From assembly GCF_024198235.1 (NCBI RefSeq), contig NZ_JAKCFB010000008.1:186001-250000 (forward strand): a stretch of DNA of 64,000 nt, read 5' to 3'. The notes beneath the pieces were generated by a model, which was not told where the DNA came from, made no database searches, and was given only the letters and a program-made list of their open reading frames with translations. Shown piece after piece: positions 18,140-23,704 of this stretch; the first letter of the stretch is position 1, and every line of letters begins with the position of its first letter. Origin of the DNA: Myxococcus dinghuensis (GTDB lineage Bacteria > Myxococcota > Myxococcia > Myxococcales > Myxococcaceae). Made by a program: the position numbers and the translations under genes.

Positions 18140-18898
18140 ATGAAGCGAGCAGGCACGATTGCCCTCCTGATGATGGCTCTTCCCCTGACGACGTGGGCTT
18201 CGCCCGTGTGGAAGGGAGACTTCGAATCGGGAGACCTCTCCCAGTGGACGGGCAGCGACGCCGTGGCGGCGGATCGGCTCCAGATCGTCGAGGACCCCGT
18301 GCGCGAGGGCCGGTTCGCCCTGAAGACGACGGTGCACCAGGGGGACGACCCCATCCACGCGAGCGGCAACCGCAACGAGTTCTTCCACTTCGGCAACGAG
18401 ACCGAAGGGACGGAGTACTTCTACAAGTGGAGCACGATGTTCGCGCCGGACTTCCCCAGCGTGGATACCTGGCAGTTGTTCACGCAGTGGCACCACGACG
18501 GCAACAGCGGCTCGCCGCCCCTGGAGTTCTTCGTGCGCGGCGAGACCATCCACCTGCGCGTCGAGGGACGGGATGACCGCGTCCTCTGGAAGGCGCCGCT
18601 GGAGCGCGGCAAGTGGCTCGACTTCGTGCTGCACGTGAAGTGGTCTTCCGACAAGGAGGTCGGCTTCGTCGAGCTGTACTACAACGGCGAACTCGTCATG
18701 CCGAAGCAGCCCGCCGCGACCCTCTACTGGGGCATGCAGAACTACCTGAAGCAGGGGCTGTACCGGGACAAGGACGTCGCAGCCGATGGCGTCGTCTACC
18801 ACGACGGCATGGTGCAGGCGACGAGCCTCGAGGACGTGATGCCGCAGGCAACCCAGGCGGCGGCTCCTGCGCCGGTGGCGGACGCCGGGCAGCCCTAG
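18140..18898 (+). CDS. Secreted polysaccharide lyase-like protein (heparin lyase I / PL20-type fold)
   Basis: 252 residues; ATG 18140 follows GGAAAGGA. Signal peptide ends TTWA. The mature protein resembles the concanavalin-like jelly-roll of the PF14099 polysaccharide lyase family: FESGDLSQWTG, HASGNRNEFFHF, YFYKWSTMFAPDFP, WQLFTQWHHDG, HVKWSSDKEVGFVELYYNGEL. Expected role is beta-elimination of uronate-containing polysaccharide outside the cell; the active residues cannot be confirmed by eye. The C-terminal ~20 residues are a disordered Ala/Pro tail. The gene stands alone, bracketed by a 37-bp near-repeat. Confidence 0.75.
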   Translation: MKRAGTIALLMMALPLTTWASPVWKGDFESGDLSQWTGSDAVAADRLQIVEDPVREGRFALKTTVHQGDDPIHASGNRNEFFHFGNETEGTEYFYKWSTMFAPDFPSVDTWQLFTQWHHDGNSGSPPLEFFVRGETIHLRVEGRDDRVLWKAPLERGKWLDFVLHVKWSSDKEVGFVELYYNGELVMPKQPAATLYWGMQNYLKQGLYRDKDVAADGVVYHDGMVQATSLEDVMPQATQAAAPAPVADAGQP

Positions 18899-19143: not shown

Positions 19144-19935
19144 TCACGCGGGGCCCTTGTGCATCCGCTCCAGGAACAACGCGAGGAGCGCCGCCCGGGA
19201 CCGCACCCCGAAGTGCTTGTAGAGGGACTTCGTGTATTGGTTCACGGTGAAGCGGCTGATCTCCATCCTCGCCGCGATGTCCTTGTCACCCAGGCCCTGG
19301 AGCAGCAGCGTCAGGGTCTGCCGTTCCCTCGGACTGAGCCTGTCAGCCTGCGGGCGATCTCCGTCTTGCTCCACCGGACCGAGCAAGGCCCAGCACTCGG
19401 AATGGAAGAGGTTCAGCAGCTCCCGCTCCGCGGCGTCGAAGCGGCGCCCGCTCCGCCCCCGGTGGATGCCGATGCCCTGCACGACCCCTGGTCGCTCCGA
19501 CCAGCGTCCCGAGTAGACCGAGTCATCGAGTCCCGTCGGGAGGAGGTGGTGCTCGACATAGGGCGCGGAGTACCACGCACGGTCTCCCACGAGGTCTCGT
19601 CGCATCGCGGTGACGACGGAACCCGGGGCCGGACGTCGCCTCATCAATGCCCGGATGGCGGGATTGCAGGCGCTGCCCATCCGCTGGAGGGACTGCACCG
19701 CGGACAGTCTGTCGGTACCCCACCCGGCGAGGACGGTGGCCGTGAAGGCGCCTGTGCCCTCGGGCCTGAAGTCCTCTTCCCTGACACAGACCGCGGCGTC
19801 CGAGCCGAGGATGCGACAAATCCCGGAGAGCAGATGCCGGGGACGCGCCCCGGGTCCCGCTGGCAACTCGTGCGTCTCGTTGATGAGACGCACCAGCTCA
19901 CGCACGTGCGAACTCCGCAGATGGGCACCCTTCAT
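19144..19935 (-). CDS. LuxR-family transcriptional regulator with N-terminal sensor region
   Basis: 263 residues; GGAGG four bases before the ATG. The last ~65 residues are a LuxR/GerE HTH (LSPRERQTLTLLLQGLGDKDIAARMEIS then FTVNQYTKSLYKHFGV). The N-terminal ~190 residues resemble a GAF/PAS-like sensor (LLSGICRILGSDAAVCVREED, ERELLNLFHSECWALL) without receiver-domain aspartates, so it is not a classical response regulator. It is divergent from a small secreted protein. The shared 21-bp element sits between them and recurs before a metalloprotease, suggesting this regulator controls secreted products. Confidence 0.85.
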   Translation of the reverse strand: MKGAHLRSSHVRELVRLINETHELPAGPGARPRHLLSGICRILGSDAAVCVREEDFRPEGTGAFTATVLAGWGTDRLSAVQSLQRMGSACNPAIRALMRRRPAPGSVVTAMRRDLVGDRAWYSAPYVEHHLLPTGLDDSVYSGRWSERPGVVQGIGIHRGRSGRRFDAAERELLNLFHSECWALLGPVEQDGDRPQADRLSPRERQTLTLLLQGLGDKDIAARMEISRFTVNQYTKSLYKHFGVRSRAALLALFLERMHKGPA

Positions 19936-19970
19936 GAGACCTCCGAGCGCGTTGCTCCGTCGATGTGTTC

Positions 19971-20019
19971 CCTAGTTCTAGCGAATTGCCAGCTTTGTCG
20001 CATTGGACGAGTTTGGTGC
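19971..20019 (+). promoter_or_regulatory. Conserved promoter element, copy 1 (LuxR / secreted protein)
   Basis: CCTAGTTCTAG then CGAATTGCCA (19971-19991) recurs at 21583-21603 with only two differences. In both places GCATTG, one base, ACGAG follows 29-30 bases from the element start (here 20000-20011). The element contains the small palindrome CTAG-TT-CTAG. It lies between the divergent LuxR gene (start 19935) and the secreted protein gene (start 20048), so it could serve either or both. Confidence 0.65.
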
Positions 20020-20047
20020 TCGCAACATCGACCCTCAGGAGCGACAC

Positions 20048-20497
20048 ATGATGAAGAAGCGGCTCACCCAGGCATTCCTCACGATGGTTGTCTTGGCGCC
20101 TTTCGCGGTGATGGCGCGCGCCGTCCCGGCCAGCAGTGGCAGACCCGCGGTCTGGGCGGACGGGGCCTGTTTCCTCATGACCTACAGCACCATGTACAAC
20201 GGCTGCACGGCCCGAAAGAGCTTCGAGTTCCCGCTGCCGGTCGACACGGTCGGCAACAAGACGGCCTACGTCGCGGCGCAGGGGGCGTCCTCCGCGAACA
20301 GCGTCGGCTGCGCCGAGGTCGGGATGAATCGCGAGGGGACGCTCGTCTACGGGGGCGCCCGCAAGTGGCTCACGAGCTTCGGCACGCCGCAGATCATCAC
20401 CCTGACGGATGCCTACATCCCGGCGGGTGGCTATCTGTACGTCAACTGCTCCGTCGACCCGAGCGCCTTCGTCATCTCCATCGACTACAACGCCTAG
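20048..20497 (+). CDS. Small secreted protein of unknown function
   Basis: 149 residues; AGGAG six bases before ATG 20048 (a second ATG follows directly). Signal peptide FLTMVVLAPFAVMARA. The mature ~120 residues include four cysteines (ADGACFLMTYS, YNGCTARKS, NSVGCAEVG, YVNCSVD) and alternate hydrophobic and polar residues, suggesting a disulfide-bonded beta-sandwich. No family recognised. It shares an upstream element with the M4 metalloprotease gene, so the two may be co-regulated exoproducts. Confidence 0.65.
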   Translation: MMKKRLTQAFLTMVVLAPFAVMARAVPASSGRPAVWADGACFLMTYSTMYNGCTARKSFEFPLPVDTVGNKTAYVAAQGASSANSVGCAEVGMNREGTLVYGGARKWLTSFGTPQIITLTDAYIPAGGYLYVNCSVDPSAFVISIDYNA

Positions 20498-20652
20498 CAG
20501 GCGCGGGATTCGGTCCCAGGTGAGCGTGGAGTGCCCATGAGGTCGCGGGCACTCCGCCTCGCTCTTCCTCGGTCCCGGGCGTCATGCCATGCGATTCCTG
20601 CTCATGCGCCCGGGACAGCGACGTGATTCGACAACCCCTGGAGCGCAGCGGC

Positions 20653-21330
20653 ATGACACGCATTGGAGCATGGGTCGGAGGGATTCTCCTCACCGGAGCG
20701 CTGTCCTATGGAGTCTACCGACTCCTCGGCGCGGCTGACTCCCGTGCGAGGGATTCGGAGGAGCAGGCCGCGGGGCTCCAGGCCCTGGAGTCACAGGTCC
20801 GGGAGTTGAAAGCCGCGGTCGCCCAGTCCACGCGGACGGCGCAGGAGGCCCAGGCCGCCGCCCAGGCAGCGCGGCTCTCGGGACCTCGCGCGGAGCCCTC
20901 CGCGACCGCCGGCGTGGGCTCCGGGGGCGCGGGGGCTACTCCACCAGGGGCGTCCCGGGAGGACGCCGCGGCGCCGCCCCGCGAGGCAACGCCAGACGAC
21001 GCGGTCCTCCGGCTCGATGCGCGCTTCTTCGGAGAGAGCGTGGACCCGACCTGGAGAAGGGACGCGGAGCAGCGGACGGAGCGGCTGCGCGCCGAACTCC
21101 CCCGTGGCGTGCGCATCGTCTCGATGGAGTGCCGAAGCTCCATCTGCCGGCTCGAGATGTCACACCCCAGCCTGGAGTCCTTCCAGAAGTTCATCCGCGA
21201 CCGACTCGTCGATGACGTGGCCACGTGGGATGGCCCCTTCATGGCCGCGGTCAAGGGACCGGCCGGGAATGCGGGAGAGGTCGAAGCGGTCGCCTATCTC
21301 GCCCGTCCGGGAACGACCCTGATGCCCTGA
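20653..21330 (+). CDS. Single-pass membrane protein with coiled coil and Cys-containing C-terminal domain
   Basis: 225 residues from ATG 20653 (earlier in-frame starts exist; GGAG precedes this one). One transmembrane segment (IGAWVGGILLTGALSYGVY), a coiled coil about residues 35-70 (LQALESQVRELKAAVAQS), a disordered Gly/Ala/Pro linker, then a ~100-residue domain with LPRGVRIVSMECRSSICRLEM. The CRSSIC pair would form a disulfide if the domain is periplasmic. Domains like this recur in myxobacterial proteins of unknown function. No partner is adjacent. Confidence 0.6.
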   Translation: MTRIGAWVGGILLTGALSYGVYRLLGAADSRARDSEEQAAGLQALESQVRELKAAVAQSTRTAQEAQAAAQAARLSGPRAEPSATAGVGSGGAGATPPGASREDAAAPPREATPDDAVLRLDARFFGESVDPTWRRDAEQRTERLRAELPRGVRIVSMECRSSICRLEMSHPSLESFQKFIRDRLVDDVATWDGPFMAAVKGPAGNAGEVEAVAYLARPGTTLMP

Positions 21331-21582
21331 ACCCTCCCACGGGTAAGCGGGAGGCCACGTTCGGGACGGCGCTCGTCGGCGACTCGTTCAAGCACCAGCT
21401 GACTGCCCTGGATTTTCTCTCGGGCCAGCACCTGATGTGCCGCCGCCGCCCCTTGTCCATCGCCTGGAATCCCCTCACCACCCAGCGCACGGAGGACGAC
21501 GAGGGCACGCCCATGCCTCACGCGAAGCGCCGGCGAATCGACCCCGAAGGGCCTTGGGTCGCGGACCGCGGCCGTCCTCCTC
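21331..21582. other. Intergenic region with no supported gene
   Basis: About 250 bases between a membrane protein and the conserved promoter element. Open frames here have no ribosome binding site and no protein signature. The region is less GC-skewed than genes nearby and contains short AT-rich patches (for example GGATTTTCT near 21410), but I find no repeat, hairpin or promoter I can defend. Confidence 0.4.
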
Positions 21583-21628
21583 CCTAATTCTAGTGAATTG
21601 CCAACCGGGGGAGCATTGCACGAGCTTT
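21583..21628 (+). promoter_or_regulatory. Conserved promoter element, copy 2 (M4 metalloprotease)
   Basis: CCTAATTCTAG then TGAATTGCCA (21583-21603) matches 19971-19991 at 19 of 21 positions. GCATTG-C-ACGAG follows at 21613-21624 in nearly the same spacing. Here the downstream part reads TTGCACG-AGCT-TTGC, one base from the sigma-54 consensus; copy 1 fits sigma-54 poorly, so the sigma factor stays open. The peptidase start is about 130 bases further on. Confidence 0.6.
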
Positions 21629-21757: not shown

Positions 21758-23704
21758 ATGATGCGCAGCAACCGCTGGCTCGCCGCATGTCTGTCGCTCT
21801 CGCTTTCGGGATGTGGCACCGGAGCCCTCGAACCCTCCGAGGCTCCACGAGCAGAAGCCTCGAAGACCGACGCATCGCAGACGGAGGGGCGGGTCCTCAC
21901 CAGCGACGCCCGCCTCCAGGACATCGCGACGGCGCTCAGCGTGTTCCCCGACGTCCAGGTCCTGGGCTCACATCCTGACGGCGTGCCGTACATGATCCAT
22001 GGCGAGCTGGGCGGTGTGGGGCAGGCCCTCGCGGGCGTCACGGCGTGGCAGGCCCACGCGCTGGTGAGCCCGGCGCTGGAGCGCATCGCCCCGTCGTTCC
22101 GTCTGGACGCGCGCGACCTCGTGCCCCAGCGAATCTCGCGGGACGCCCAGGGCCGCACCCATCTGCGGTACGCGCAGACCAAGGAGGGCCTGTCGGTGCT
22201 GGGAGGTGAGCTGGTGGTGCACCTGGACGCGTCTGGCCAGGTGTACGCGGTGAACGGCTCGGCGCGGGATGGAGAGCAGGTGTCGTCCAAGCCCGGCATC
22301 GCTCCGGAGGCCGCCCAGCAGGTGGCCTTGAGGAAGACGCCGGGCGCGAGCGCGTTGGAGGGCGTGCCCCGCCTCGTCTACGTCCGCGCGACCGAGAAGG
22401 ACTCGCTGCGCCTGGCCTGGGAGGTACGGGTGACGGGCAAGCACACCGCCCTCCCTCTGCGCGACCGCGTCTACGTGGACGCCATGGATACCGCCATCGT
22501 CCTGCGTGTGCCGGAGATCCACGCGCTGCTCAACCGCAAGGTGTACAGCGCGAACAACGGCACCAGCCTTCCGGGGACGCTCAGGCGCAGCGAGGGCCAG
22601 GGGGCCACGGGGGATGCCTATGTGGACAGCCACTTCGACGTGCTGGGAACCACGTACGACTGCTTCAGCACCCTGTTCGGGCGTGACTCGTATGACGACG
22701 CGGGCCACGCGCTCAGCAGCACCGTGCACTACTCCAACAACTACGTGAACGCCTTCTGGGACGGCACGCAGCTCGTGTGCGGGGATGGAGACGGCGTCAA
22801 CTCCGGGCCGCTGTGCACGGACCTGGACGTGGTGGTCCACGAGCTGACCCACGCGGTGACGGACTTCGAGTCCGGCCTCGTCTACGCCGGCGAATCCGGC
22901 GCGCTGAGCGAGTCCCTGTCGGACATCTTCGCCGCCACGTGCGAGAGCTGGACGACCTCGTGGTCCACGGGCCCGGACGTCTGGAAGATTGGCGAGGACA
23001 TCTGGACCCCCGCCACGCCGAATGACGCCCTCCGGTACATGGACGACCCGGCCCTGGACGGCGCCTCGCTGGACTCCTACGAGGACTACTCGTCCAGCAC
23101 CGACGTGCACTACGGCTCGGGCATCCCGAACCTGGCGTTCAAGCTGCTGGCCACCGGCGGCGTGCATCCGCGCGGACGCTCGACGATCGAAGTCCCGGGC
23201 ATTGGCGTCGAGGCCGCCGCTCGCATCTTCTACAAGGCCAACACGGACTACTTCACCTCCAGCACGACCTTCGAGCAGGCCAAGACCTATACCGAGTACG
23301 CGGCGCAGGCGCTCGGCTACAGCGCGGCCGTCGTGGAGTCCGTGAGTCTGGCGTGGCAGGTCGTGTACATCCCCCTCAACTTCCCGGTGTTCTGCACGAC
23401 CCTTCCCCCGTTCAGCGGCACGGTGACCAACCTCAGCGGCGTGCTGAACTCGAACCGGTACTACTGCGCGAGTGCCGGCGCATACACCACCACGCTGTTC
23501 ACCATCGGCGGAGGCACGGGGGACGCGGACCTGTATGTCCGCTTCGGCGCGGCGCCGACGAAGAACCTCTACGACTGCCGTCCGTTCACGGGAGGCAACA
23601 CGGAGGTGTGCACCGTCACGGCGCGACCCACCGCGGGCAAGTACTGGATCATGATCAACGCGTACAGGGCCTACTCCGGCGTGACGTTCAGCTATTCCTT
23701 CTGA
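21758..23704 (+). CDS. Secreted M4 (thermolysin-family) metalloprotease with C-terminal PPC domain
   Basis: 648 residues. Signal peptide with a lipobox-like SLSLSGCG. A long propeptide (about 30-265) of FTP/PepSY type (GQVYAVNGSARDG, LAWEVRVTGKH) acts as chaperone and inhibitor. The catalytic domain has HELTH (361-365), the downstream zinc-ligand Glu in GALSESLSD, and the catalytic His in DVHYGSGIPN. A C-terminal ~100-residue pre-peptidase (PPC) beta-sandwich (DADLYVRFG, YWIMINAYRAYSGVTFSY) is usually removed or used for substrate binding. It is a likely predatory or nutritional exoprotease. The upstream element links it to the LuxR locus. Confidence 0.92.
   Translation: MMRSNRWLAACLSLSLSGCGTGALEPSEAPRAEASKTDASQTEGRVLTSDARLQDIATALSVFPDVQVLGSHPDGVPYMIHGELGGVGQALAGVTAWQAHALVSPALERIAPSFRLDARDLVPQRISRDAQGRTHLRYAQTKEGLSVLGGELVVHLDASGQVYAVNGSARDGEQVSSKPGIAPEAAQQVALRKTPGASALEGVPRLVYVRATEKDSLRLAWEVRVTGKHTALPLRDRVYVDAMDTAIVLRVPEIHALLNRKVYSANNGTSLPGTLRRSEGQGATGDAYVDSHFDVLGTTYDCFSTLFGRDSYDDAGHALSSTVHYSNNYVNAFWDGTQLVCGDGDGVNSGPLCTDLDVVVHELTHAVTDFESGLVYAGESGALSESLSDIFAATCESWTTSWSTGPDVWKIGEDIWTPATPNDALRYMDDPALDGASLDSYEDYSSSTDVHYGSGIPNLAFKLLATGGVHPRGRSTIEVPGIGVEAAARIFYKANTDYFTSSTTFEQAKTYTEYAAQALGYSAAVVESVSLAWQVVYIPLNFPVFCTTLPPFSGTVTNLSGVLNSNRYYCASAGAYTTTLFTIGGGTGDADLYVRFGAAPTKNLYDCRPFTGGNTEVCTVTARPTAGKYWIMINAYRAYSGVTFSYSF

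Follow-up and report, generated by a model that had tools for sequence, protein, structure and literature searches.

Gene organisation and a repeated 21-bp motif

The window considered here, that is, the whole stretch of 64,000 nucleotides that was analysed, is part of contig C103 in the 10.4-Mb genome of Myxococcus dinghuensis. It includes a luxR-type gene transcribed divergently from a gene for a small, predicted secreted protein, which is followed by genes for a 248-aa protein and an M4 protease (Table 1). A first-pass annotation made from the sequence had called a LuxR regulator, a secreted protein and an M4 protease, and these calls hold according to Pfam matches and a signal-peptide-like start. 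A polysaccharide lyase gene (PF14099) at 18140-18898 ends about 245 bp from the luxR end, and the motif search revealed no operator before it.

Table 1. Coordinates of the genes and of the predicted regulatory features in the window
Feature	Position	Strand	Basis or remark
luxR-type regulator, 263 aa, GAF/LuxR-like N-terminal domain and GerE HTH	19144..19935	-	Pfam, homologues, predicted fold
Likely luxR ribosome-binding site, GGAGGT	19939..19944	-	read from sequence
Operator copy 1, dyad TCCCTAG-TT-CTAGCGA (7-2-7)	19969..19984	.	dyad and column conservation, 19 sites
-35-like hexamer TTGCCA, secreted-protein promoter	19986..19991	+	TTnCnA conserved, 17 bp to -10 position
-10-like hexamer GAGTTT	20009..20014	+	xAxxxT at same offset, 14/23 sites
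Small secreted protein, 149 aa, predicted jelly-roll fold	20048..20497	+	signal-peptide-like start; model pLDDT 87.6
248-aa protein, N-terminal hydrophobic segment	20584..21330	+	tblastn, ORFs; relatives suggest start 20653
Operator copy 2, dyad TCCCTAA-TT-CTAGTGA	21581..21596	.	dyad and column conservation
-35-like hexamer TTGCCA, M4 protease promoter	21598..21603	+	conserved TTnCnA
-10-like hexamer GAGCTT, spacer 18 (spacer 17 would give CGAGCT)	21622..21627	+	coordinates
M4 (thermolysin-family) protease, 648 aa, lipobox-like start	21758..23704	+	Pfam M4 catalytic, M4_C, FTP (propeptide), PPC

The motif CCTA(G/A)TTCTAG(C/T)GAATTGCCA occurs on the + strand at 19971-19991 and 21583-21603, and the two copies are identical at 19 of 21 positions. 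Both had been reported in the first-pass annotation, exactly as found here, and they are the only two in the window: no third was present when up to three mismatches were allowed, and 100 shuffled sequences gave no match. A genome-wide motif search, which had been proposed as a check, yielded three matches with up to three mismatches in the 10.4-Mb genome and none in a reversed control.

The block GCATTG-x-ACGAG had also been described after a nearly equal gap in both copies. The block does follow at such a gap, 8 nt after copy 1 and 9 nt after copy 2, but it did not stand as a conserved element, since GCATTG is found in three of the 23 sites compared (the two window copies and the close relative G070a) and the end of the block overlaps the -10 position. 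On its own the block is weak because 1.07 chance matches are expected in the window with up to one mismatch; at that tolerance no third was found there. The confinement of GCATTG to the window copies and G070a points instead to a common descent of those promoters.

Anatomy of the probable operator and promoter

Alignment of the sites indicated that the 21-bp motif comprises most of a 16-bp dyad, TCNCTA-N4-TAGNGA, fused to the -35 hexamer TTGCCA; a -10-like hexamer follows 17-18 bp further downstream. The consensus dyad, TCNCTAA-TT-YTAGNGA, consists of inverted heptamers separated by a 2-bp spacer. This anatomy was derived from 19 sites, the 23 minus four near-identical ones (G077, G078a, G078b and G072a), in which the conserved stretch extends from T(-1) to A/G(21). 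Pairing over eight positions reached 67% around centre 6.5, compared with 46% around the next best centre tried, and the individual pairs were present at 3:10 in 19/19, 2:11 and -1:14 in 18/19 each, 0:13 in 17/19, 4:9 in 14/19, 5:8 in 12/19 and 1:12 in 4/19 sites. A first guess for the dyad, AATT-N6-AATT with centre 10.5, was discarded because it gave 46% pairing as opposed to the 67% at centre 6.5.

Downstream of the dyad, T16, T17, C19 and A/G21 make up a -35-like TTnCnA. A hexamer with A at its second and T at its sixth position lies 17 bp past it in 14 of the 23 sites, an offset that was first picked by eye and whose next best competitor gives 5/23, and these hexamers match TATAAT poorly. 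The first-pass annotation had pointed to the likeness of copy 2 to a sigma-54 promoter, and a sigma-54 element common to both genes would be another way to read the motif. Copy 2 has TTGCA behind a run of G, and the relaxed pattern TGG-N9/10-TTGC is present in one of the 23 sites. However, GG-N10-GC occurs at one same place in at most two of the 23, and the parts that are conserved are the dyad and the -35/-10 hexamers at 17 bp. The sigma-54 element was rejected, and a promoter of this class shared by the two genes is hardly conceivable.

The distance from the dyad centre to the first base of the -10 position is 32.5 bp (33.5 in copy 2, with its spacer of 18), which places the centre at about -44.5 relative to the predicted transcription start. 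Such a predicted centre is at the usual place for an activator. The same protein and site could also serve repression, either of the secreted genes until a ligand releases them or mainly of luxR itself. On the luxR strand the dyad overlaps a -10-like string (TAGAAC/TAAAAT), so that binding would block it, and some LuxR-family proteins are described as repressing without ligand (PMC4471428). Against repression, the dyad is located upstream of the weak -35/-10 hexamers and not over them, the usual layout of an activator; as for repression of luxR, no -35 for this gene was seen by eye at a matching distance, and the sites detached from luxR have no luxR gene to repress. Repression is thus considered unlikely, and activation appears likelier from the arrangement of these elements.

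The symmetry of the dyad varies at position 12 (19982 and 21594 in the window). A G that completes the palindrome was counted by hand in four of five sites away from luxR and in two of 18 sites beside it (p 0.008), and the G057 and G058 sites, added later, also have it. Detached sites tend to a perfect TAGGGA and luxR-adjacent ones to an imperfect TAGYGA, copy 2 being an exception; this contrast perhaps reflects a different affinity.

The LuxR-type regulator

The regulator encoded in the window contains a GerE domain (PF00196, E 6e-13; 48.7 bits against a cut-off of 23.5), which was matched in all 26 members of the family. The autoinducer domain PF03472 gave no Pfam match in this protein at E up to 5 and was not among the 25 most shared of 32 families in the 26 members, in searches whose filters drop most weak matches; a PAS domain was not matched by Pfam in the family either. 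In the structure model (pLDDT 84), the N-terminal domain appears closest to LuxR ligand-binding domains, with CepR2 (Z 14.6, 157 aligned, 2.6 A) and VqsR (Z 14.1) at the top and GAF-type domains just behind (Z about 12-13). The LuxI synthase family PF00765 had no match in the genome itself, nor in the control genomes. The PDB sequence closest to the HTH is NarL. The HTH helix SRFTVNQYTK is near-constant in 21 aligned homologues, with the variants SPFTVNQYTK and SRFTVNHYTK in two each, and five remote proteins carry another helix (SxxTVHDYSK) and are devoid of the site.

Searches of 96 genomes of the family with the LuxR protein, at an identity of at least 53%, identified 22 luxR genes, spread over 17 genomes and two genera. 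G068, where a 49% match is limited to LuxR residues 157-260 and no site is present within six mismatches, was not counted as LuxR-bearing. Extension of the search to 195 genomes of the phylum added one remote LuxR (36%, G121), upstream of which the site was not found. The window genome has two LuxR matches, on C103 and C33; the paralogue on C33 (110072-110887, 60%) has its own operator before a lipoprotein-like gene without Pfam family. One of the 22 luxR genes, that of G055, is split into two reading frames (C28, about 136081-136661) with an unmatched middle, and the operator and the 149-aa target look intact. The luxR genes of the window and G070a are sisters (82% identical, support 100/100) and have different targets.

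Co-occurrence of the site and LuxR

In the 96 genomes, the 21-mer with up to three mismatches was found at 14 places in nine genomes. Twelve of these places adjoin a LuxR-like gene, and the remaining two are copy 2 and one in G032. A 17-bp core, CCTNRTTYTAGNGAATT, had 16 exact matches, 15 of them beside a luxR homologue and the sixteenth being copy 2; with up to one mismatch it was found at 28 places, compared with two in the reversed control. The exact core is present in 13 of the 17 LuxR-bearing genomes and in none of the 79 without LuxR (Fisher 6e-13). One-mismatch cores in five LuxR-less genomes (G042, G052, G062, G085 and G086), as well as one in G063 at 9.78 Mb, were put down to chance. 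The position before luxR is nearly fixed: 19 of the 22 genes have CCTNRTTYTAGNGAATT with up to two mismatches between 4 and 39 bp upstream of the start codon used, and the other three have it with three (G022), five (G057) and six (G058) mismatches. In G022, whose luxR lies beside a 149-aa gene, the site is decayed and has a matrix score of 7.6.

The matrix separates the sites, with the 18 training sites at 25.4 or more and the next best of 743,762 positions at 9.8. Both window copies were outside the training set and scored 32.8 and 36.1, the latter value belonging to copy 2 and being as high as those of luxR-adjacent sites. A search with the dyad only in 27 genomes gave 15 matches, all in LuxR-bearing genomes, compared with two in the control. 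When two mismatches were allowed in the same number of genomes, 87 matches were obtained (23 with none or one, 64 with exactly two), compared with 14 for the reversed sequence; 20 of the 64, chosen for inspection in their context, included one that was convincing. The sequence ACTTGTTCCAGAGAATT, which deviates from the motif at two positions, is situated at the very beginning of contig C1 in G069 (126-142) and G072 (45-61), recurs in other genomes and is probably unrelated.

The adjacent LuxR is probably the protein that binds the site, as judged from these distributions. A different, unlinked regulator might bind it instead, with LuxR being a passenger or merely another target, and in line with this the luxR retained in G057 and G058 has no site next to it. 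It is improbable in view of the lack of the exact core in the 79 LuxR-less genomes, the restriction of all 15 dyad matches to LuxR-bearing ones and the persistence in G057 and G058, which keep luxR, of the dyad before a target that has moved. Because most sites adjoin luxR, the co-occurrence count is partly built in, and sites detached from luxR therefore constitute a stronger, independent test.

Sites detached from luxR

Seven copies, including that of the M4 gene, lie away from luxR, and each of them precedes a predicted secreted protein or lipoprotein; the presence of the motif before other secreted-protein genes, named at first pass as a check, is thus what was found. Besides copy 2, before the M4 protease of the window, the window genome has a site on C81, TCCCTAATCTTAGGGA; it precedes by 76 bp a second copy of the 149-aa gene, 54% identical to the first, which is accompanied by a second copy of the 248-aa partner (distances are counted from the first base of the core). 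In G061 (C104) the site is located between two divergent M4 genes, one of which is the 81% orthologue of the window M4; in G070 (C2) it lies 92 bp before an M4 gene and in G067 (C58) 117 bp before a 255-aa lipoprotein. The last two, in G057 (C6) and G058 (C1), are perfect dyads before a 298-aa lipoprotein and lack the AATT/-35 part seen elsewhere. Over 319 aligned columns this lipoprotein shares 49% identity with the 322-aa target that stands beside luxR in G076, and no relative of that target was found in a 20-kb region around luxR in G057 or G058. These two species have lost operator and target beside luxR; the site has followed the target, and control by the regulator would therefore require action in trans. 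Among the sites of the genus with at most one mismatch, six are detached and three of these precede M4 genes, or two of five when copy 2, the starting point, is left aside; for a random site to fall within 300 bp upstream of an M4 gene, p is near 1.4e-4, assuming about five M4 genes per genome.

Copy 2 might also be no more than promoter DNA that was copied and has no regulatory role. The GCATTG spacer shared by copies 1 and 2 and otherwise seen in G070a alone among 23 sites would fit such copying, as would the G061 orthologue of the M4 gene, whose similarity to the window M4 upstream region spans about 18 bp only. By contrast, in other species M4 genes and further genes for predicted exported proteins are preceded by detached copies whose flanks differ, and the matrix score of copy 2 is as high as those of luxR-adjacent sites. 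A copy devoid of function is very improbable. We infer from the sequences that, in the lineage of the window, the neighbouring promoter was copied to the M4 gene. A luxR remnant beside copy 2 was also sought, and tblastn with LuxR in window positions 10001-34000 (E up to 1e-5) found luxR itself only.

Probable target genes and their products

The genes adjacent to luxR that are read in the direction of the site vary between species and encode the 149-aa protein, a lipoprotein (143, about 203 or 322 aa), or proteins of 501 and 184 aa; in G070 they are an M57 peptidase (PF12388, E 4e-17) and an M4 protease, and in G061 (C212) and G067 (C68) the target looks decayed. The 248-aa gene, absent from the first-pass annotation, also lies behind the 149-aa gene in several relatives, and neither protein has a Pfam or NCBIfam family. 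The model of the 149-aa protein resembles several carbohydrate-binding modules (Z about 10-11), which only hints at glycan binding; bacterial toxin domains match the fold at similar E-values in Foldseek, so that the jelly roll alone tells little. Export of the targets is predicted by simple sequence rules: 10 of 14 target starts, beside luxR and detached, pass a hydrophobicity of 2.0, compared with 26% of 207 background ORFs, and a simple pattern assigns a lipobox to eight of the 14.

Among close relatives of the 149-aa gene (at least 54% identical, the window gene included), seven of eight have a site scoring at least 22.6, the exception being the decayed one in G022, whereas more distant matches have a site in two of 18 cases, both next to luxR. 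Two of 30 M4 loci, drawn from 132 M4 matches in 27 genomes and not including the site-bearing G070 M4 genes, have a site. The other 28 have nothing above 14.9 on the matrix, and a general M4 promoter was rejected on this basis. The rarity of the site among relatives of both genes implies that it is not a general feature of either family. In related genomes it is found before other secreted enzymes and lipoproteins, which makes it appear to be a switch common to a small group of secreted proteins. The small exoproduct regulon tied to the adjacent luxR, put forward at first pass, is well supported at the sequence level by the LuxR co-occurrence, the near-fixed place before luxR and the detached copies.

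A proposed model for the regulation of predicted exported proteins

The element probably combines a sigma-70-type promoter with a binding site for the LuxR/NarL-type regulator encoded next to it, and genes for exported proteins would be activated through it. A LuxR dimer would bind directly upstream of a weak -35, at the 7-2-7 dyad TCNCTAA-TT-YTAGNGA, whose predicted centre is about 44.5 bp ahead of the transcription start. Given the right state of its GAF/LuxR-like N-terminal domain, the regulator would then activate the exported-protein gene downstream. Its further targets in the window genome, reached in trans, would be the M4 protease gene at a distance of 1.6 kb and the second copy of the secreted-protein gene on C81, and the paralogue on C33 would use its own copy of the site before the lipoprotein gene. 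The site is also just upstream of luxR and may therefore control luxR itself. In Myxococcus and Corallococcus, regulator and site remain similar while the targets are swapped.

The analysis provides a short operator and a probable regulator for predicted exported proteins of predatory myxobacteria, and an example of a regulator whose targets appear to be swapped while the operator stays. A search of the literature at the level of titles and the beginnings of abstracts found no description of this regulator or operator. In a study of Myxococcus xanthus, the way in which it responds to AHLs was described as unclear, and one myxobacterium only was stated at that time to have a PF03472-bearing LuxR homologue (PMC5348527); a later survey reported LuxR homologues in nearly every Myxococcaceae genome surveyed (PMC7694542). 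A LuxR-type protein whose predicted LuxR/GAF-like sensor fold goes unrecognised by Pfam is a tangible candidate in this context, in those species that possess it. It is a speculative and quite unlikely extension that the family senses a small molecule made by others, such as AHLs of the prey or another ligand, and switches on strain-specific secreted proteases and lipoproteins. If true, the system would resemble a plug-in arsenal in which the weapons can be exchanged while a single sensor and its operator are conserved, and the protein would be a candidate for the signal receptor that has been missing in some predatory myxobacteria.

Comparison with known systems

NarL is reported to bind inverted heptamers 2 bp apart, with the napF site at -40 to -49 (PMC4549865), a range that includes the predicted centre of about -44.5 of the present dyad. 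The operator described here is like these 7-2-7 operators of NarL/NarP in E. coli (napF, yeaR) in the inverted heptamers, the 2-bp spacer and the GerE-type HTH. It differs from them in the heptamer (TCNCTAA/TTAGNGA), in the GAF/LuxR-like domain that replaces the receiver domain and in the targets, which are predicted exported proteins. LuxR solos of the SdiA, CepR2 and VqsR type share the GerE HTH, and the predicted N-terminal fold comes closest to the ligand-binding domains of CepR2 and VqsR. Lux boxes, which are described as centred at -42.5 (PMC4471428), are likewise dyads just upstream of the -35. Unlike in these systems, PF03472 was not matched here and GAF-type domains score nearly as high, and the lux box is 20 bp long. 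A third resemblance is to the PAS-LuxR regulators of Streptomyces, whose PimM-type box CTVGGGAWWTCCCBAG is given as a palindrome in the -35 region (PMC9774167), with half sites resembling CTAGGGA. The half sites of the PimM box are opposite in direction to those of the present dyad, no PAS domain was matched here, and the PimM-type targets reported are antibiotic genes, whereas the genes behind the present operator are predicted to encode exported proteins.
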